From an uncultured Alphaproteobacteria bacterium (GTDB lineage: Bacteria; Pseudomonadota; Alphaproteobacteria; HIMB59), in NCBI GenBank assembly GCA_902543855.1, contig CACBZW010000005.1, positions 1 through 33,195 of the forward strand: a DNA stretch of 33,195 nucleotides, written 5' to 3'. Of the stretch, positions 18,422-29,241 are shown piece by piece. Every line of letters starts with the position of its first letter. Within the stretch, counting starts at the first letter, position 1. The notes beneath the pieces were generated by a model. It ran no database searches. It had not been told where the DNA came from and saw nothing but the letters and a program-made list of their open reading frames with translations. Position numbers and translations under genes: made by a program.

Positions 18422-18455
18422 AAAAAGCCTAAATACTTATTTATCTAGGCTTTTT
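18422..18455. terminator. Rho-independent-type (bidirectional-looking) terminator
   Basis: Perfect 10-bp inverted repeat AAAAAGCCTA...TAGGCTTTTT with A/T tracts on both sides, directly downstream of the stop of the 18465-19769 minus-strand gene. Confidence 0.82.
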
Positions 18456-18464
18456 AAAATAAAA

Positions 18465-19769
18465 TTAATATGCCGTATCTCTTCCATCATCCTTTGCAAT
18501 TTCTCGTGCATTAGGATTTACTGACGGTCTAAAAGGTATTTCAACTATTTCACCATCTACAGGCGACCCTGGAGTTTCACAATACTCATCAGGTAGATGA
18601 AATTTAAATTTATTACCTAAGTCTTTTTTCTCATAAGGTACATATCCCATTGCGATATTTGTTCCCAATTCTGGGGAATACCAAGGTGATGTTAGATACC
18701 CTATTGGTGTAGATCCATCTTCAGATATAAGCCAAAAGTCTGGAGCATATTCATCAATGGGTTTACCACCTAATCTAAATCCAACTAGTTGGTTGCTATA
18801 TGGTTTCTCACCTGCCTCAATTTTTGTTCTCATTGCCTCTAGAGCTTCTTTACCAATATAGTCAGCTTGTTTTTTTCTTGGAACCTGATAGCCAAGGTTG
18901 CATTGAAATGGATAAGTTTCGGCATCAAGATCTTGACCCCAAGATAAAATTCCTGCAGCTATTCTTCTATGATGAGCAGGTGCAATTACTTTAAGATTGT
19001 GTTTCTTTCCAGCCTCTAAAACAGCATTCCACATATCATCTGCATACAAAGTTGCATCTCTGAGGTAGATTTCATATCCCTTTTCCCCAGTAAAACCTGT
19101 TTGGGAAATAATACAATCTCTCCCTCCAACTTTTGCTGCCATTAATCCATAGTAGGGAATATCTCTAACAGCATCTCCAACCAAATCTGCCATAAGATCG
19201 ATTGATTTTGGTCCTTGAATTTGAACAGGAGATACATCTATTTCATCAATTTCAACATTAAATTTTTTATCGTGATTTACACCTTGAAGAAAAAACATAA
19301 TATCAGAGTCAGATAGTGAAAACCAAAATTCATCCTCTGCAATTCTGAGTAATATAGGATCATTTAACACTCCTCCTTTGTCATTACAAAGGATTACATA
19401 TTTTCCTTTCATTACATCAATTCTTGTAGCATCTCTTGTGATAACGAAATTTGTAAATTTTAAGGCGTCAGGTCCTTTTACACGAATTTGTCTTTCTACT
19501 GCAACATTCCACATAGTTACGTGATTTACTAATGCATCATATTCGACCATTGCACCACCATCCTCAGGTTTTACATAACCTCTAGGATGATACATTCTAT
19601 TGTACACGGTGCATCTCCAACATCCTGCTTCCACTGATAAATGCCAATAGGGATTTTTTCTAACTCTAGTAGATATAAGCATTTGTTGAGGTGTTGGTCC
19701 TGATTGCCTTAAATTAAAAGGGACTTTTCTGTCAGATTGGTCCACTGAACTTGGTTGCTTAAGCTTCAT
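18465..19769 (-). CDS. Aminomethyltransferase (GcvT) fold protein, DmdA-related; substrate unassigned
   Basis: 'MWNVAVERQIRVKGPDALKFTNFVITRDATRIDVMKGKYVILCNDKGGVLNDPILLRIAEDEFWFSLSDSDI', 'DVSPVQIQGPKSIDLMADLVGD', 'QTGFTGEKGYEIYLRD', 'AGILSWGQDLDAETYPFQCNLGYQV' resemble DmdA / GcvT-like THF-dependent demethylases. SD AGGAGG just upstream. Confidence 0.8.
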   Translation of the reverse strand: MKLKQPSSVDQSDRKVPFNLRQSGPTPQQMLISTRVRKNPYWHLSVEAGCWRCTVYNRMYHPRGYVKPEDGGAMVEYDALVNHVTMWNVAVERQIRVKGPDALKFTNFVITRDATRIDVMKGKYVILCNDKGGVLNDPILLRIAEDEFWFSLSDSDIMFFLQGVNHDKKFNVEIDEIDVSPVQIQGPKSIDLMADLVGDAVRDIPYYGLMAAKVGGRDCIISQTGFTGEKGYEIYLRDATLYADDMWNAVLEAGKKHNLKVIAPAHHRRIAAGILSWGQDLDAETYPFQCNLGYQVPRKKQADYIGKEALEAMRTKIEAGEKPYSNQLVGFRLGGKPIDEYAPDFWLISEDGSTPIGYLTSPWYSPELGTNIAMGYVPYEKKDLGNKFKFHLPDEYCETPGSPVDGEIVEIPFRPSVNPNAREIAKDDGRDTAY

Positions 19770-19849: not shown

Positions 19850-20731
19850 TTAAAAGATTTTGTTGTGGAGGACTATTTTGTTATTTTCCATTGTAAAATC
19901 ACCATTTTGAAGAGCATTTAACCAATGACAGGTCTTCTCGAAGCCACCAAAAGGAAAACAGTGAAAATTTTTAAATGAACTTTGTTCTTTAGAGAAGTTT
20001 GCTAATTCAATAAACATTTCATCGTTTGAAGTTTTTGTTAAAAGGTCAGTTACTTTAGATGAGTTTTTTTTCAAAAAACTTAATGAATTTCCAACACCAC
20101 TCATTATGCCAAAATTAAGAAGTGTTTTAAAAGACGCCGGGCCTGGAAAGCCTACTCTGACGGGTAATTTTATATTTGAATTATCTAAAAATTTACACCA
20201 TTTAATAAATGGTTCGGCATTAAAAAAAAATTGAGTAACAAGTTCTAAACTTAAATTTTTATTCTTTGATAATTCATATTTTTTATCTAAAAATTCGTTG
20301 ACAGTATTTTGATCAATATCAGGTGAACCTTCTGGGTGTCCAGCTATTCCTATCTCTTCAAATTCATTATCCTTTAATAAACCAGACTCTAGTATTTCCA
20401 GCGAGGATGATACTGATCCATTCTGATTACCACCACCACCTATAACAAGAATTTTTTTGCTATCTGTTCTATTTCTTAGTTCTTTTAGGAAGTCTGAAAC
20501 ATGATCTAAATTTCTCATTGTCCTTGCAGGCAAATGAGTAATAGGAGTTAATTCTTGTTTAGATACAAAATCAACAGTTTCTAAGATATCGTTTTCCGTA
20601 GCATCAGGTAAATATGTTATGTAGACATTATTTTTTTTATCTAGAGGGATAGACTTTAGTTTGTGTCTTACTTTTGGGTTTAACTCTATGGTAAAGCCAT
20701 CTACTAAAGAAACGATATTTTCTTTGATCAT
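19850..20731 (-). CDS. Methylenetetrahydrofolate reductase-like protein (MTHFR superfamily)
   Basis: 'FTIELNPK', 'LTPITHLPARTMRNLDHVSDFLKELR', 'ILVIGGGGNQNG', 'EEIGIAGHPEGSPDI', 'LELVTQFFFNAEPFIKWCKFL' follow the MTHFR TIM-barrel motif order, but divergent from canonical MetF. Confidence 0.78.
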   Translation of the reverse strand: MIKENIVSLVDGFTIELNPKVRHKLKSIPLDKKNNVYITYLPDATENDILETVDFVSKQELTPITHLPARTMRNLDHVSDFLKELRNRTDSKKILVIGGGGNQNGSVSSSLEILESGLLKDNEFEEIGIAGHPEGSPDIDQNTVNEFLDKKYELSKNKNLSLELVTQFFFNAEPFIKWCKFLDNSNIKLPVRVGFPGPASFKTLLNFGIMSGVGNSLSFLKKNSSKVTDLLTKTSNDEMFIELANFSKEQSSFKNFHCFPFGGFEKTCHWLNALQNGDFTMENNKIVLHNKIF

Positions 20732-20749: not shown

Positions 20750-23224
20750 TTAAGACTTTAATCTACGATTTTCTGGGTCGAGCAAAGGTTCCTCTGTAAC
20801 TGTTAATGGATACCTTTTGCCAAAGTACTCGACCTCTAACTTATTTCCTTTTTCTGACAATTCTGTTGGTAAATATCCATAAACAATGTGTTTATCTACA
20901 AAATAGCCATAATTTGTACTTGTAACATACCCTACAGCTTTACCATTTGAATAAATTGGTTCTGTGCCCAAGGCCATTCCTTCAGGGTCATCAATAATCA
21001 TACAAGTAAGTCTCTTTTCAATTGGTTTTTCTTTTATTTTTTGAAGTGCATTCTTACCGATAAACTCATCATCTTTTTTAAGCTTTACTGTAAAGCCTAA
21101 GCCTGACTCATAAGGGTTGTAATTAGTATGAATATCTGTACCCAGTGATCTATAGCCTTTCTCCAATCTGAGTGACTCAAAAGCACCAGCACCTGAGCAA
21201 ATCATGTTGAACTCTCTTGAGGTTTCTCGAAGTTCATCCCATAATGATAGCCCATACTCAGTAGGTGTGTATATTTCCCAACCTAATTCACCTATATAAG
21301 ATATTCTTACAGCAACACAAGGAATGTTACTGATTGAAATCTTTTTAATATGGAAAAATGGAAAACCCTCGTTAGATACATCATCATCATCACACAGTTT
21401 TTCAAGAACAGATCTTGAATTTGGCCCCCATAATCCGATACCTGCAAAAGCAGATGTCCAATCTATGATCTGAACACTTCCGTCATCAGGAGCATTTGCT
21501 CGAAGCCAACTAATATCAATCATTCCATTCCCAGCTCCTGCCAAGACCCAAAATTTATTTTCCTCAAGTCTACTAATAGTTAGATCACTCTTTATACCAC
21601 CATACATATTAGAAATTACGCTATAAACAACTTTACCTACGGCAACATCAATATTATTTGTGCAAACTTTCTGTAATAATTTTAGAGCACCTTTTCCACT
21701 TACTTCAATTTTCACAAATCCTGTAATATCAAACAGGGCACCCGTTTGTCTTGTTACAAGATGTTCAGCTGCTTGAATTGGTGACCAATATTTTGCAGCC
21801 CAGCCTGTCCTATTTGGAAAGTTTTTACCTTTCATTAATTCAGCATTTGACTCATACCATTGAGGTCTTTCCCAGCCCATAGTCTCAAAGAAATGTGCTT
21901 TTTGTCCTTCTAACCTTGCATAAAATGGACTTCTTCTGAGTGGTCTTGGCTGCTCCATTTGTTGAAGCGGGTGAATAATATCATATACCTCTTTATAATT
22001 CTGCTTACCTCTTGACCTTAGATATTTCCTGACATGATGATGTTGATGAAAACGATTGATATCTCCTTGACGAACATCAAGTTCAGGCTCACCATTCACT
22101 ATCCATTCTGCCATAGCTTTTCCAACACCACCCGCATGTGTTATCCATACAGCATTAGCGGTCCACAAACCTTTTACACTTGTCTCGCCCATTAAAGGGT
22201 TACCATCTGTTGTAAATGAAAAAATTCCATTAATTTTTTTTGTAAGTTTTTTTTCTGAAAATCTTGGGAACAACCAATTCGACTCTTTATGTGCACCTTC
22301 AAAATCATCAGGTCTAAAGTCCACCAAAGAGGGCATTTCTTCAGCATCTTCAGGTTTCTTTAATTCTTCTGACTCTAAAATTCTTGGTTCATGTCGATAA
22401 TTCCCAATAACATAAGTATCATTCCATTGTCTGAAATAGAGACTGTAATCTTGGTGACGCATCAATGCGTGTTCAACCAAAGCTTCTTTGTGATCAGCTT
22501 TAAATTCTTTCAATTCTTCAAACGGTTCTAACCACACCATTTGATGTTCGCAGGGAACTAGAGGCAATGATATGTTCGCAAGTCTTCCCATTTTTGGAGC
22601 CCAGATACCAGTTGAGACAAGTACAATATCGGCTTCATAATCACCCTTAGATGTTTGTACACCGCGAATTTGATTATTCTGAATTTTAAAACCATTAACT
22701 GCTGTGTCACCAAAGAATTCCCCTGCTTTTAAATCAGTCACATATTTTGCCATTGCTCTAACTGCCCTTACAGGTGCTGCTAAACCATCAGTTGGAACAT
22801 AATATCCTCCGTGAATTTTTTCTGGATCAATATAGGGGCTCATTTTTAAAACTTCATCTGGAGTAATTATTTTTGCATCAGTTAATCCATAACTGTGAGC
22901 TATACCTAGTTTTCGATACAGGTCTTGATGTCTTTCTTTTGTCTTCGATACTTCAATTCCTCCAACAGTATGAAAACAAGGTTTTCCCTCGTATGATAAG
23001 GATCTAAGTAAGTCAACTGTGTACTGCGCAAATTTACACATCATTCGTGAAGGATTAGTTTGAAACACACCTCCTGGTGCATGACTCGTAGAGCCTCCAG
23101 TTTCAAACAATGGCCCTTGATCGAGTATGACCATATCTTTCCAACCCAATTGAGCTAAATGATAGGCGGTGCTCGCTCCAACAATACCACTGCCAACGAT
23201 AATTATTCTTGATTTTCTTGCCAT
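20750..23224 (-). CDS. Dimethylglycine/sarcosine dehydrogenase-like FAD-dependent oxidoreductase fused to GcvT domain
   Basis: 824 aa; N-terminal 'RIIIVGSGIVGASTAYHLAQLGWKDMVILDQGPLFETGGSTSHAPGG' DAO domain; C-terminal 'LFDITGFVKIEVSGKGALKLLQKVCTNNI...ISYIGELGWEIYTPTEYGLSLWDEL...GAGAFESLRLEKGYRSLGTDIHTNYNPYESGLGF' GcvT domain. Confidence 0.9.
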   Translation of the reverse strand: MARKSRIIIVGSGIVGASTAYHLAQLGWKDMVILDQGPLFETGGSTSHAPGGVFQTNPSRMMCKFAQYTVDLLRSLSYEGKPCFHTVGGIEVSKTKERHQDLYRKLGIAHSYGLTDAKIITPDEVLKMSPYIDPEKIHGGYYVPTDGLAAPVRAVRAMAKYVTDLKAGEFFGDTAVNGFKIQNNQIRGVQTSKGDYEADIVLVSTGIWAPKMGRLANISLPLVPCEHQMVWLEPFEELKEFKADHKEALVEHALMRHQDYSLYFRQWNDTYVIGNYRHEPRILESEELKKPEDAEEMPSLVDFRPDDFEGAHKESNWLFPRFSEKKLTKKINGIFSFTTDGNPLMGETSVKGLWTANAVWITHAGGVGKAMAEWIVNGEPELDVRQGDINRFHQHHHVRKYLRSRGKQNYKEVYDIIHPLQQMEQPRPLRRSPFYARLEGQKAHFFETMGWERPQWYESNAELMKGKNFPNRTGWAAKYWSPIQAAEHLVTRQTGALFDITGFVKIEVSGKGALKLLQKVCTNNIDVAVGKVVYSVISNMYGGIKSDLTISRLEENKFWVLAGAGNGMIDISWLRANAPDDGSVQIIDWTSAFAGIGLWGPNSRSVLEKLCDDDDVSNEGFPFFHIKKISISNIPCVAVRISYIGELGWEIYTPTEYGLSLWDELRETSREFNMICSGAGAFESLRLEKGYRSLGTDIHTNYNPYESGLGFTVKLKKDDEFIGKNALQKIKEKPIEKRLTCMIIDDPEGMALGTEPIYSNGKAVGYVTSTNYGYFVDKHIVYGYLPTELSEKGNKLEVEYFGKRYPLTVTEEPLLDPENRRLKS

Positions 23225-23282: not shown

Positions 23283-23804
23283 CTAATAGTTAACCGCGTC
23301 AATAAGACGATCCTCAAGATAGTCAGCAAATGATCGATTACAACTAAGTAACAATTTTAGATCAAGATTAAAAATAGAACAGTCTACTCTAGCTAATAAT
23401 GTTTGTGCAGCAGTGGATTTTTTAAAGGATTTTTCTCTAAAGTCAAAATGCGTTAATTTATTTAATATATCAAAACTATTTTTACCCTGAATTTCAAAAA
23501 ATACTTGTGAGTCAGAAATATTTGTCGCCAATATTAAGGGTGATTTATTTAAGTCAGCTAAGATTTTGTTGAGTTTATTATTTTCAATTTCTTTTTCAAA
23601 TATCAAATTCCATTGATCAAAAGACATTTTTGCTAAAGTATAATTATCATTTGAAATTATCCTTAAATTATCTGATGGTGGTAAAAGTTTTAAAGATTTA
23701 TTTATGTGATTATTAAATTTTGAGTCACCAGATCCTCTTAACAGAATCTGTTGAATAACTTTTTTTTTTATTTCAATACCATCAGATCGGATTACTTCAG
23801 TCAT
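23283..23804 (-). CDS. soxG: Sarcosine oxidase gamma subunit
   Basis: Small subunit encoded after soxA with 4-nt overlap; 'FFEIQGKNSFDILNKLTHFDFREKSFKKSTAAQTLLARVDCSIF...CNRSFADYLEDRLIDA' matches SoxG pattern. Confidence 0.85.
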   Translation of the reverse strand: MTEVIRSDGIEIKKKVIQQILLRGSGDSKFNNHINKSLKLLPPSDNLRIISNDNYTLAKMSFDQWNLIFEKEIENNKLNKILADLNKSPLILATNISDSQVFFEIQGKNSFDILNKLTHFDFREKSFKKSTAAQTLLARVDCSIFNLDLKLLLSCNRSFADYLEDRLIDAVNY

Positions 23805-26779
23805 GAAACTAACCTTTTATTACCTTCATCATAAAAAACTGGTTTAACTATATCCACACCAGTTGTGCCCATACTTGATGTAGAAGCGTAAGCTTTTGTT
23901 CCAATCATAGAGTGGCCATTTTTGATAACAGCTAATGCAAAATCATGACCTAATGTAGGACTATAATAACAAGATGTAATATGACCAAGCATTGGAACAG
24001 GAGACTTAATTTCTTTATCAAGAATGATATGTTGTCCTTCCTCTAGTTTATCGGTTTTATTCGAGGGAATAATACCAACAAGTTGTTTTCTATCTTCTCT
24101 TATAGTATCAGACCGAGTAAGTGATCTTTTACCTAAAAAATCTTTTTTTGATTTACCAATCATCCAGCTAAGTCCTAAATCTATTGGCGTTATAGAACCA
24201 TCTGTGTCTTGGCCAACAATAATGTAACCCTTTTCTGCCCTTAAAAGATGCATTGCCTCCGTGCCGTAGGGAGCAAGACCAAATTCTTTTCCAACACTTT
24301 GAATGTTATCCCAAATTTTAGGGGCACTATTTGACGGAATATATATTTCGTAACCTAACTCCCCAGTAAAGCTTGCTCTTAGAATTCGTATTGGAACACC
24401 ATTAAATTCATGAAATTGGAAAGTCATAAATGGAAACTCCTCATTGCTAAAATTGATATTTGGAAAGGCTTTTTTCATAATTTCTCTGGTTTTTGGTCCA
24501 CTGATGTTGAAAGTTGCATATTGCTCTGTAATCGAGTTCATAAAAACTTTTAAATTTGGCCACTCGGTTTGAGCATATTCCTCCATGCAACCTAAAACAG
24601 TAGCAGCACCTCCAGTAGTTGTAGTGGCAATAAAATGCTGATCAGAAATTTTACAAATTATCCCGTCATCTTTTACCATTCCATCTTCCCCCAACATAAG
24701 AGCATATCTTGCAGAACCTTGTTTCATCTTAGTAAAACTGTTTGTGTAAATTAAATTCATAAATTCCAACGCATCCTCACCTTTGATCTCAATTTTTCCT
24801 AATGTGCTCCCATCTAAAATACCTGCGTTTTCTCTTACATTTTTGCTCTCTCGTTGAACAGCATCATGCATCGACTCATCTTTATTAATTTGAAAATACC
24901 ATGGCCTTTTCCATTGCCCGACATCCTCAAAAATTGCACCATTTTTTAAGTGCCAATTATGTATTGGTGATTTTCTCTCTGGGTCATAAAACTCATAGCA
25001 ATTTCTGCCAGCTATTGCAGAAAAACTTAAAGGAGCATAGGGTGGTCGATAAATAGTTGTGCCAACTTCATTTACTTTTTTATCCAGAAGATCAGAAACT
25101 ATTCCCAGTGCGTTAATACTACTAATTTTACCTTGATCGGTTCCCATACTATTTGTTGTATATCTTTTTAAATGTTCAATTCTATCAAAACCCTCTGTTA
25201 TTGCTTGACGGATATCTTTAGTTGTTACATCATTTTGTAAGTCAATAAATGATTTAGCCCATAATGATTTCTTTTGCGGAGAGACCTCCCACAATTTTTC
25301 AATGTTATACTTAGCATTTGTATTTAATTCGAGTTTAACGTCTAATTTTTTGACTTTAAAAGTTTTCAATTTTTCATTTATATCAGAATTTAAATTATCA
25401 AAATTAAATTGTCCTGAAGCAGAACCAAGAGTTATGGTAGGTTGAAAAGGTTTTGATGGTTTGTAAGTTAAATCTTTCTCATCCCAATCTAATAAACCTT
25501 TTGATTGAGTAAACAAGTGAACATCTGGATTTATTCCACCTGACAAACATAAGCAGTCACATTTAATTTCATTCAAGGCACCAGAACTATCCTCAACAAG
25601 AATTTTTTCAATTTTTTTGTTTCCAAATGCTCCTTTTATTTGTGAATTTGTGTAAAGAGGAACATCATTTTTTCTTATCAAGTCAAACAAATTTGGCTCA
25701 ATTTCCTCCCCGGATCGTGAGTCGATATATGCTTTTGGTTTTAAACCAGCTTTTATAAGACTATAAACTAAGCTGTTTGAATTCGAATTATTACTGAAAA
25801 TAACAGGTTCTTTAGAAGGTGCTAGTCCATATCGGCACATATATTTTTCAAAGGAAGAGCTTAGCATTATGCCTGGGAGATCGTTATTTTGAAAAGATAA
25901 AAATCTCTCAATGTGTCCATTACATAATATTGTGTGACCTGTGCGTATCTTATGTAAAGTGCTATTAACTTTTCCTTCAATCGGTTTAGAGCCAACAAAT
26001 CTATCTTCAATGGCTATAAGATGATTAATGTAATTATAAGTAGTAACAAGTGTGTTTTTTAAAATCTTTATATTCTTAGAGTCTTCTATTTCTTGTATAG
26101 TTTCTTTTAACCAATCTTTAGGCTCTTTGTTATCAATTGATGATATTTTGTTTGAATTATTTATAATGCCACCAAGTTGTTCCTCAAAGTCAATTAACAA
26201 CACATCATAATTTGAGTTGATGAAAGATTTAGCTGCGAGGAGTCCATTTATTCCTCCTCCTATAATTGTAATATCGACATTGTGATGGATATGATTGCTT
26301 ATGCCTTTGAAATCTTTGGGAGGTTTACCTAATCCAGCGGCTCTTCTAATAAGTGGTTCATACAAATTTTTCCAAAATTTCTTATGCGGCCCCATGAACG
26401 TTTTATAGTAAAAACCAGCAGTAAAAATTGGAGAAAATAAGTTATTGATACTTCCAAAATCGTTTTCAAGAGAAGGCCATCTGTTTTGACTTTCAATTTC
26501 CATTCCTTCATAAATTTTTTTTATAGTTGCTCTTGTGTTTGGTTCGGAATATTCACTAATTATTTGGACTAGAGCATTTGGTTCTTCTATACCACAAGTA
26601 TAAATTCCTCTTGGCCTATGGTACTTAAAACTTCTTCCTACAAGGTTAATATTATTTCTTAATAGAGCTGAGGCTATAGTATCGCCTTTGTAGCCAAAAT
26701 ATTTGACCCCATCAAACTTGAAGCTAATTTTTTGATGAAACTGAATAAATTGATTATCTTTTAAATTTATAGATTTCAT
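23801..26779 (-). CDS. soxA: Sarcosine oxidase alpha subunit
   Basis: 992 aa; N-terminal 'FKFDGVKYFGYKGDTIASALLRNNINLVGRSFKYHRPRGIYTCGIEEPNALVQI', dinucleotide motif 'ITIIGGGINGLLAAK', C-terminal GcvT domain 'NISGPKTREIMKK...SFTGELGYEIYIPSNSAPKIWDNI'. Confidence 0.95.
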   Translation of the reverse strand: MKSINLKDNQFIQFHQKISFKFDGVKYFGYKGDTIASALLRNNINLVGRSFKYHRPRGIYTCGIEEPNALVQIISEYSEPNTRATIKKIYEGMEIESQNRWPSLENDFGSINNLFSPIFTAGFYYKTFMGPHKKFWKNLYEPLIRRAAGLGKPPKDFKGISNHIHHNVDITIIGGGINGLLAAKSFINSNYDVLLIDFEEQLGGIINNSNKISSIDNKEPKDWLKETIQEIEDSKNIKILKNTLVTTYNYINHLIAIEDRFVGSKPIEGKVNSTLHKIRTGHTILCNGHIERFLSFQNNDLPGIMLSSSFEKYMCRYGLAPSKEPVIFSNNSNSNSLVYSLIKAGLKPKAYIDSRSGEEIEPNLFDLIRKNDVPLYTNSQIKGAFGNKKIEKILVEDSSGALNEIKCDCLCLSGGINPDVHLFTQSKGLLDWDEKDLTYKPSKPFQPTITLGSASGQFNFDNLNSDINEKLKTFKVKKLDVKLELNTNAKYNIEKLWEVSPQKKSLWAKSFIDLQNDVTTKDIRQAITEGFDRIEHLKRYTTNSMGTDQGKISSINALGIVSDLLDKKVNEVGTTIYRPPYAPLSFSAIAGRNCYEFYDPERKSPIHNWHLKNGAIFEDVGQWKRPWYFQINKDESMHDAVQRESKNVRENAGILDGSTLGKIEIKGEDALEFMNLIYTNSFTKMKQGSARYALMLGEDGMVKDDGIICKISDQHFIATTTTGGAATVLGCMEEYAQTEWPNLKVFMNSITEQYATFNISGPKTREIMKKAFPNINFSNEEFPFMTFQFHEFNGVPIRILRASFTGELGYEIYIPSNSAPKIWDNIQSVGKEFGLAPYGTEAMHLLRAEKGYIIVGQDTDGSITPIDLGLSWMIGKSKKDFLGKRSLTRSDTIREDRKQLVGIIPSNKTDKLEEGQHIILDKEIKSPVPMLGHITSCYYSPTLGHDFALAVIKNGHSMIGTKAYASTSSMGTTGVDIVKPVFYDEGNKRLVS

Positions 26780-27126
26780 TTTTCAACCGTAAAATTACCC
26801 GACCCAACTTCTGGTTCACCAGAGGGCGTTTTAACAACACTTTTAAAATTATTTAAATTTGGTTTTTTTTCATCGAGCTTGTATGTCACCAAAATTTCAT
26901 CAGTAGATGTATCTCTTACACAATTAAACCATTTGCGACAACCATGTGTGTGTACCCAGCGCTCATAAAACAAACCTTTCGGATTTGCTCTTATAAAGAC
27001 ATATTCTCCCCACTCTCGATCACCAATTTCTTTTGATCCATCGGGTCTTTTTACATGCGCCTCTCCTCCATTTGAAAATTCCGATTGATCTCTCGGGCCA
27101 CAATAAGGGCAATTAATTATGAGCAT
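26776..27126 (-). CDS. soxD: Sarcosine oxidase delta subunit
   Basis: 'MLIINCPYCGPRDQSEFSNGGEAHVKRP...WVHTHGCRKWFNCVRDT' with Zn-ligand Cys/His pattern of SoxD. Confidence 0.95.
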   Translation of the reverse strand: MLIINCPYCGPRDQSEFSNGGEAHVKRPDGSKEIGDREWGEYVFIRANPKGLFYERWVHTHGCRKWFNCVRDTSTDEILVTYKLDEKKPNLNNFKSVVKTPSGEPEVGSGNFTVEK

Positions 27127-27131
27127 ATTTA

Positions 27132-28382
27132 TTAATGTGCTACGGCTGCAGCACCGTGTTCGTCGACTAATCTTCCACTTGCAAATCTATCAAGATTAAA
27201 AGCACTATTAATTTGATGAGGTTCATTTTTTGCAATTGTATGTGCAAAAACATTTGCACTTCCAGGTGTAGCTTTAAAACCACCTGTGCCCCAGCCACAA
27301 TTAAAAAATAAACCCTCAATGTCACATTTACTAATAATAGGACTAGCATCTGGGCAGATGTCAACAATCCCACCCCATTGACGAAGCATTTTCATTTTCC
27401 CAAATACTGGATAAAGCTCGACCATAGCTCGAATAGTATCTTCAATAATGTTAAAACCACCTCTTTGAGTGAAAGAATTATAACTGTCGGTTCCTGCTCC
27501 AATAACTAATTCACCTTTATCAGATTGACTGACATAAGCATGAACTGCAGAGGACATTACCACTGTATCAATAATAGGTTTGATTGGTTCAGAAACAAGT
27601 GCCTGAAGTGGCTTACTTTGTAAAGGTAATCTGATACCTGCACTTTCTGCTAAAACACCAGTATGACCTGAAGCAACAACTCCAATTTTATTTGCCCTTA
27701 AAAAACCCTTGGAAGTTTCTACACCTTCTATTGTTCCATTTTTAGTCCTAATTTGATGTGCCTCACAATTTTGAATTATATCAACTCCCATCTCATCAGC
27801 ACGCATTGCAAAACCCCATGCTATTGCATCATGTCTTGCTACACCACCGCGAGGTTGGTAAGATGCACCTAGCACTGGATATCGAAGATTGTCAGTATTC
27901 ATTATAGGAACCTTTTTTTGAATTTCTTCTTTAGATAACCAAAATGAATCAATACCATTCAAATTATTTGCACTCACTCTTCTTTTTATTTCTTTTATAT
28001 CATGTTCGTTATGGGCTAAATTCATAACCCCTCTTTGACTAAACATTACGTTGTAATTTAATTCGCTTGATAGGTTTTCCCATAACTTCAAAGAGTGTTC
28101 GTACAAATGAGCACTATCATCCCATAAATAATTTGATCTAATGATAGTGGTATTTCTACCTGTGTTACCTCCACCAAGCCAACCTTTTTCTATTACGGCA
28201 ATATTTTTTAATCCATGTTCTTTTGCTAAGTAATATGCAGTTCCTAGTCCATGACCCCCACCACCAATTATTATGACATCATAAAACTCTCTAGGTTCGG
28301 GGCTTCTCCACATTTTTGGCCACTCTTTATGGCCAGATAGTGCATTTTTAGCTAGGCTAAATATTGAATATTTTTTCTTCAC
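27132..28382 (-). CDS. soxB: Sarcosine oxidase beta subunit
   Basis: '[81 protein letters not shown]', '[18 protein letters not shown]', C-terminal '[24 protein letters not shown]'. Confidence 0.96.
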
Positions 28383-28410: not shown

Positions 28411-29241
28411 TCAGCTAGTTATTTTCAGGGGCGAATTGTCATTAATTTTTTTAAAAATTTTAGGGAACTTCCATTGCAAATCGCAGTCTACATTTGGGGC
28501 TTGAGCTGAACTATTTAAGTCGCTTTCACAAATAGTTCTAATTTCAAAGCTTATCCTTGTATTTTCAGACTTTTCTTTTGATGAGCTATGTAAGTGAGCA
28601 CCTGAAAAACATAAAATTTCTCCTGGTTTTATAGTTACCGGTATTTTCTTAATATTGCTGGGCAAGTCCTCTTTTAATTGTGGAGCAGAGGGATAAGAAA
28701 AATCGCCTTTTTTTCTATTTGCTAAATAAATGTTTAAGTCCCAAGTCGAAGTAGTATTCTTAACTGGAACATCAAAATAATCTGGATAAAAAATCATTGT
28801 ATTTTTTTCCTCTACACTGCTTACTGGTGCCCACCAATTAATTTGTTGATACAAATTTGTGCCCCAAGTATCACGATGAATATTTATTCTAGATGCTTCT
28901 CTATAAGGTAAGTTATTTTCTGCTGGTGCTACTCTTACCACAAATCGATCCCAAAAAGTTCCACCTTTATTATATCCAATTTCATATAAAAAGTTTGAAA
29001 ATAGTTTTCTGAAATCTTCATGGTTTTTTAATTTTGATACAATATCCTTACTTATATCCTCAGAATTTTTTAAATAGTGTATTTTTTCTATTTCACCATC
29101 ATAAATATTTTGTATTTTATTTTTAATTTGGGTTATTAAATCATTAGAAGTTTTTGATTTTTGAAATACAAAAACTTTTCCACTAAAAATATCTTTTTTA
29201 AATTGTTGAAGATTTGAAATTTTTTCTATTGGTATAAACAT
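28411..29241 (-). CDS. Putative 2-oxoglutarate/Fe(II)-dependent oxygenase (PhyH-like), substrate unknown
   Basis: 'INIHRDTWGTNLYQQINWWAPVS' (HxD), 'IKPGEILCFSGAHLHSSSKEKSENTRISFEIRT' (distal His and R-x-S) resemble the 2-His-1-carboxylate facial triad plus 2OG-binding Arg. Confidence 0.6.
   Translation of the reverse strand: MFIPIEKISNLQQFKKDIFSGKVFVFQKSKTSNDLITQIKNKIQNIYDGEIEKIHYLKNSEDISKDIVSKLKNHEDFRKLFSNFLYEIGYNKGGTFWDRFVVRVAPAENNLPYREASRINIHRDTWGTNLYQQINWWAPVSSVEEKNTMIFYPDYFDVPVKNTTSTWDLNIYLANRKKGDFSYPSAPQLKEDLPSNIKKIPVTIKPGEILCFSGAHLHSSSKEKSENTRISFEIRTICESDLNSSAQAPNVDCDLQWKFPKIFKKINDNSPLKITS

Follow-up and report, generated by a model that had tools for sequence, protein, structure and literature searches.

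DmdA catalyses the redox-neutral demethylation of DMSP through an SN2-like step on the sulfonium. A DmdA-related aminomethyltransferase of unknown substrate, SAR11_1265, adjoins the metF gene SAR11_1264, and Sun et al. speculated that it acts on methylmercaptopropionate (MMPA) (PMC3160333). In stationary-phase HTCC1062, the transcripts of SAR11_1264 and SAR11_1265 drop in parallel, by 5-10 fold (PMC5069961), consistent with an operon. Sphingobium SYK-6 possesses an MTHFR that oxidizes 5-methyl-THF downstream of LigM (PMC12585457), and in haloarchaea dimethylglycine (DMG) oxidase genes have been noticed, with the demethylase not named (PMC3102087). Searches of the open-licence literature turned up no description of a glycine betaine demethylase from the GcvT family. 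Here we analyse a sister of DmdA from the HIMB59 order, a member of the GcvT/DmdA superfamily that, with a probability of about two in three, demethylates glycine betaine in a THF-dependent, cobalamin-independent manner.

A DmdA-sister gene and its neighbours

The window, that is, the entire 33,195-nt stretch of DNA analysed, belongs to a genome of 0.69 Mb that is 56% complete. The DmdA-sister gene, encoding a GcvT-fold protein and candidate glycine betaine:THF methyltransferase, occupies exactly positions 18465..19769 on the minus strand as an intact ORF of 434 aa, which contains the DMSP-demethylase-like motifs quoted in the sequence-only reading, and it is preceded by a ribosome-binding site, AGGAGG, located 6 nt upstream of the ATG. 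An intrinsic-terminator-like stem (18422..18455, minus strand; 14 pairs followed by a T-rich stretch) lies at most 10 bp past the stop codon; its assignment is backed mainly by position and stem length, with 5 terminator-like sites seen in the region versus 5.4 expected from shuffled sequences. The GCV_T and GCV_T_C domains exceed the Pfam cutoffs (135.2 and 34.9 bits, respectively), and the AlphaFold2 model (pLDDT 88.3, pTM 0.88), built from an alignment free of plasmid-derived sequences, matches both GcvT and DmdA structures. The comparison of such a model with DmdA, proposed earlier as a check, returned DmdA from P. ubique (3tfh) as the nearest fold (TM-score of 0.93 by target length), and the same structure is the best solved relative by sequence.

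The gene closes a run of eight genes with the same orientation, all on the minus strand and separated by -4 to 80 bp. The run starts with a gene for a 2OG-Fe(II) oxygenase-like protein (28411..29241; weak TIGR04324 match) and continues with the sarcosine oxidase subunit genes soxB (beta; 27132..28382, above the TIGR01373 cutoff), soxD (delta; 26776..27126, above the TIGR01374 cutoff), soxA (alpha; 23801..26779, with 1121.8 bits for TIGR01372, just below the 1164 cutoff) and a divergent soxG (gamma; 23283..23804, recognized by profile matches). These are followed by a dimethylglycine oxidase/dehydrogenase gene (20750..23224; 824 aa, aligned over its full length with the Arthrobacter globiformis dimethylglycine oxidase 1PJ5 at 733 bits), a metF-like methylenetetrahydrofolate reductase gene (19850..20731; 293 aa), the DmdA-sister gene and the terminator-like stem. 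The adjoining soxBDAG and dimethylglycine oxidase genes bear out the earlier impression of an amine rather than a DMSP context. The metF-like protein, a putative 5-methyl-THF oxidizer, scores below the canonical MTHFR cutoffs; its best solved relative is 7xg9 (139 bits), which is also the top match of the haloarchaeal MetF, far above canonical MTHFR in either case. We take 7xg9 to be the Sphingobium SYK-6 enzyme that oxidizes 5-methyl-THF after LigM. Homologs of the 2OG-Fe(II) oxygenase-like protein (26-29% identity) were also observed near the DmdA-sister gene in three unrelated loci (L078, L146 and L148).

Family assignment and conservation

A maximum-likelihood tree computed from 83 sequences, covering the DmdA-sister family, DmdA, intermediates, GcvT, and SoxA and DMGDH domains, united the family, including its haloarchaeal members, in a single clade (support 100/97), with DmdA plus the intermediate proteins as its sister (96/93) and with the GcvT, SoxA and DMGDH domains falling apart from it. 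This phylogeny, another check suggested from the sequence, places the protein inside neither DmdA nor GcvT. The top NCBIfam family is DmdA (NF009133), with 270.2 bits versus a cutoff of 410, and DmdA, one of the identities initially entertained, was discarded on account of this score, the position outside the DmdA clade and the lack of the SKQ motif. Also rejected were GcvT (158.6 bits versus a cutoff of 300; outside the GcvT clade), the TMAO demethylase Tdm (160.4 bits versus 1100; 434 aa versus about 760 aa, with the C-terminal half of the Tdm model alone being aligned) and the LigM/DesA O-demethylases (46.1 versus 580 and 55.4 versus 800 bits). True DmdA paralogs scoring above the cutoff coexist with the DmdA-sister gene in five genomes (G029, G037, G096, G187 and G273).

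At 23 positions, both the DmdA-sister family and DmdA are fixed, yet different. SGE replaces the SKQ that is fixed in the sampled DmdA after a conserved Gly-aromatic pair (G228-E229 versus K199-Q200), Q223 replaces an arginine present in all other groups sampled, and H266, R268 and W277 further distinguish the family from DmdA. In contrast, S151, E233 and Y235, the Ser/Glu/Tyr trio with folate roles taken from PMC7487153, are invariant across both the family and DmdA, as is D137, the aspartate of the NDP motif, which aligns with the catalytic Asp of GcvT. Given these shared residues, the chemistry has probably been conserved and the methyl donor changed. The DMSP-pocket tryptophan of DmdA, W171 (PMC7487153), maps to W197 in 3tfh numbering and is a Phe in the DmdA-sister protein; it was dropped as a specificity marker because several accepted DmdA have Tyr at this position. 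Against the DmdA model, proteins from loci L182-L188, L190, L191 and L236 reach about 360-395 bits, and they form clades just outside accepted DmdA. Another, deeply separate GcvT-like protein (L244/L004, G000:C37), labelled tmmT in the tree, branches on its own there and adjoins a flavin monooxygenase that, by eye, resembles trimethylamine monooxygenase.

The longer N-terminus remarked upon in the sequence-only reading is real. Residues 1-30 (19680..19769, minus strand) carry, from residue 9, the signature VDQSDR-P-NLRQSG, a block that is near-invariant in the family and missing from DmdA; ten of its positions (V9, D10, Q11, R14, P17, N19, L20, R21, Q22 and G24) are among the 143 invariant in 35 bacterial and archaeal representatives. 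The extension is modelled with low confidence (pLDDT about 41-62). The atypical Cys-Trp-Arg-Cys did not hold up as a distinguishing motif: most orthologs have GCWRA, the haloarchaeal ones GAWRC, GAWRA or DAWRA, with the Trp-Arg alone being nearly constant, and this poor conservation rules it out as a metal or methyl site. A relative with 52-54% identity (L140/L142, G084:C38), lacking the VDQSDR signature, forms a basal branch of the family.

Orthologs with 54-100% identity were found in the HIMB59 order, Pelagibacteraceae, Rhodospira, Spiribacter, Arthrobacter, Nostocoides and on haloarchaeal plasmids. Near-identical loci occur in single cells of uncultured Alphaproteobacteria, and 92% identity is reached in HIMB59; the clade members from SAR11, Rhodospira, Spiribacter, actinobacteria and haloarchaea are 55-80% identical. 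The gene is carried by 19 of the 385 sampled alphaproteobacterial genomes; in a sample of 297 genomes drawn from the phylum to which the Arthrobacter record belongs, that record's own genome was the only carrier. Such a patchy distribution at high identity suggests horizontal transfer.

A gene 70-72% identical to that in the window directly follows metF in the Pelagibacteraceae locus L110 and in two genomes, G273 and G362, that are complete at 1.2-1.3 Mb, and SAR11_1265 is, judging from these sequences, very probably its ortholog. An unassigned DmdA-like paralog, as the protein was initially described, had already been recorded in the form of SAR11_1265 (PMC3160333). Whereas Sun et al. grouped SAR11_1265 as DmdA-like, the family forms its own clade here.

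Gene context, co-occurrence and the methyl donor

The surroundings of 37 sampled DmdA-sister loci, to a distance of about 9 kb, were compared with those of 20 accepted DmdA genes, scoring betaine and C1 genes only; the counts are minimal, with some loci ending at contig ends. DMG oxidase/dehydrogenase genes were present at 24 of the 37 loci versus none of the 20 DmdA loci (P = 5e-7), metF at 15/37 versus 1/20 and Sox genes at 13/37 versus 0/20. In the window (733 bits) and in haloarchaea (572 bits), the DMG enzyme linked to the gene belongs to the Arthrobacter oxidase 1PJ5 type, whereas Rhodospira has one of the mammalian DMGDH type (628 bits), so that the common theme of the linked loci is DMG rather than one orthologous operon. 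The haloarchaeal loci additionally contain genes for Fhs (formate-THF ligase), FolD, SHMT, threonine/serine ammonia-lyase and a BCCT transporter. On haloarchaeal plasmids (L120, L122 and L123), the islands that hold the DmdA-sister gene also include genes for the folate-synthesis enzymes dihydropteroate synthase and aminodeoxychorismate synthase as well as FolD-type genes, which looks as though the THF supply were travelling with the pathway.

The carriers were further distinguished by their gene content. An FAO_M (DMGDH-type) protein is encoded in 19/19 carriers versus 119/366 of the other sampled alphaproteobacterial genomes and, by genus, in 13/13 carrier genera versus 86/263 others (P = 1e-6). 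Among FAO_M genomes, the MttB/MtgB family, which also includes enzymes for other methyl donors, was found in 3/19 carriers versus 44/65 non-carriers (P = 1e-4), counted per genome, with kinship being handled at the genus level in the FAO_M test only. GbcA above the cutoff was found in none of the genomes tested; the nearest approach was in carrier G366, where the DmdA-sister gene occurs alongside MttB proteins and a GbcA-like protein. In several carrier genomes, no known enzyme for the first glycine betaine demethylation was found. For example, Rhodospira trueperi has DMGDH, SoxA and the DmdA-sister gene in one cluster, and its GCV_T proteins comprise GcvT, SoxA, DMGDH, the DmdA-sister protein and a YgfZ-like one; searches of this genome yielded no MTTB, Rieske oxygenase or DmdA, and no candidate for BHMT, MtgB or GbcA. 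PF02574, which cannot separate BHMT from other homocysteine methyltransferases, matched a single place there, a MetH-size ORF, and BHMT was called absent only where such an ORF stood alone.

The situation differs in the window's own genome, which encodes two BHMT-like proteins; the HIMB59 BHMT-like match to human BHMT is 158 bits. As SAR11 is likewise reported to have BhmT (PMC5069961), the glycine betaine demethylation step may not be missing in HIMB59 and SAR11. However, BhmT of HTCC1062 is controlled by SAM riboswitches (PMC5069961), which fits a role in methionine supply rather than in bulk betaine breakdown. One of the BHMT-like genes of the window's genome is clustered with a kinase-like gene and a second DMGDH-like gene encoding 810 aa (L242, 4989-9438, G000:C3); the second BHMT-like gene is on G000:C14. 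A HIMB59 Rieske protein, also at G000:C14, was rejected as GbcA (107 bits versus 670).

Gene context suggests that the DmdA-sister family removes the first methyl group of the osmolyte glycine betaine in a B12-free reaction, and glycine betaine is the best-supported choice of donor, made on context and co-occurrence. Another onium osmolyte (DMSP at a different affinity, dimethylsulfonioacetate, proline betaine, carnitine or similar) is an unlikely donor, although it, too, would yield 5-methyl-THF, the DMG and sarcosine genes being nearby because they feed the same folate C1 pathway. The clade adjoins DmdA, folate C1 genes are linked, and in several genomes the gene lies apart from DMG genes. 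Its position away from any betaine cluster in Spiribacter, Nostocoides, one Haloarcula and a few alphaproteobacteria counts against the betaine reading, as do the BHMT-like proteins of HIMB59 and the MttB and GbcA-like proteins of G366. These points have to be set against a specific link to DMG enzymes of two different types, the 19/19 co-occurrence with FAO_M, the inverse relation to MtgB and a carrier, R. trueperi, without DmdA.

Far less probable is action on DMG or sarcosine, or a role as a stand-alone partner of the neighbouring flavoenzymes that passes formaldehyde units on to THF, as the resemblance of the GcvT fold to the C-terminal domains of DMG oxidase and SoxA might suggest. Both enzymes retain their own folate domains, the protein groups with the 5-methyl-THF-forming DmdA and not with the GcvT, DMGDH or SoxA domains, and the linked metF would be superfluous if the product were 5,10-methylene-THF. 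Of the earlier proposal of a glycine betaine/DMG demethylase, the betaine half is favoured by context and co-occurrence, whereas DMG demethylation is unlikely, the adjacent protein already being a dimethylglycine oxidase relative; the broader option of a new methyl-X:THF methyltransferase gains support from the family, the folate residues and the metF linkage.

The MMPA demethylase role in the DMSP pathway, put forward for SAR11_1265 from its DmdA similarity and metF adjacency (PMC3160333), is very doubtful for the DmdA-sister protein, given that some carriers, such as Rhodospira, are without DmdA, DMSP genes do not figure in the haloarchaeal gene lists and, on chemical reasoning, THF is methylated far less readily by a neutral thioether than by an onium. 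Operation in the making direction, with methyl transfer from 5-methyl-THF, or a regulatory function with no catabolic role is the least credible reading, hinted at by the housekeeping-like context in G366 and Spiribacter and opposed by the mostly catabolic character of the linked loci.

Proposed pathway and comparison with known systems

The analysis establishes an intact gene, a predicted fold, conserved folate and catalytic residues, a distinct clade, linkage and co-occurrence; what the protein acts on, what it releases and which way MetF runs are inferred as follows. The DmdA-sister protein would convert glycine betaine and THF to dimethylglycine and 5-methyl-THF, a redox-neutral transfer of one methyl group in the manner of DmdA on DMSP, in which N5 of THF would attack the quaternary ammonium methyl in an SN2-like fashion, with dimethylglycine leaving. 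The neighbouring DMG oxidase would then convert dimethylglycine to sarcosine and SoxBDAG sarcosine to glycine, while the MetF-like protein would return 5-methyl-THF to the oxidation pathway as 5,10-methylene-THF. On balance, we lean towards regarding this single cobalamin-independent betaine:THF methyltransferase as a fourth route of glycine betaine demethylation next to BHMT, GbcAB and MtgBCD, present in Bacteria and Archaea, including SAR11 and HIMB59, where it may be dissimilatory, with BHMT serving methionine supply. If so, a SAR11 core-genome protein open since 2011 would gain a function, HIMB59 and Rhodospira a B12-free betaine route, and the haloarchaea with DMG oxidase genes their missing first step; the tally of betaine demethylation in ocean metagenomes would shift as well.

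DmdA (NF009133; 3tfh/3tfi/3tfj) resembles the DmdA-sister protein in fold (TM-score of 0.93), folate residues, NDP aspartate, sister position and the expected product, 5-methyl-THF, but the identity is about 28-33% and the context is one of DMG rather than DMSP. The C-terminal domains of dimethylglycine oxidase/DMGDH share the superfamily and the gene neighbourhood, but yield 5,10-methylene-THF as part of a fusion with a flavoprotein domain. A parallel is offered by Sphingobium SYK-6, in which LigM/DesA, GcvT-derived and producing 5-methyl-THF, are paired with a reverse, oxidizing MTHFR (PMC12585457), although the substrates there are aryl methyl ethers and the sequence similarity is low (46-55 bits). 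Finally, MtgBCD, BHMT and GbcAB would share with the DmdA-sister protein the proposed reaction, glycine betaine to dimethylglycine, but they rely on cobalamin methyltransfer, homocysteine as the acceptor and Rieske oxygenation, respectively, and all are unrelated to it.
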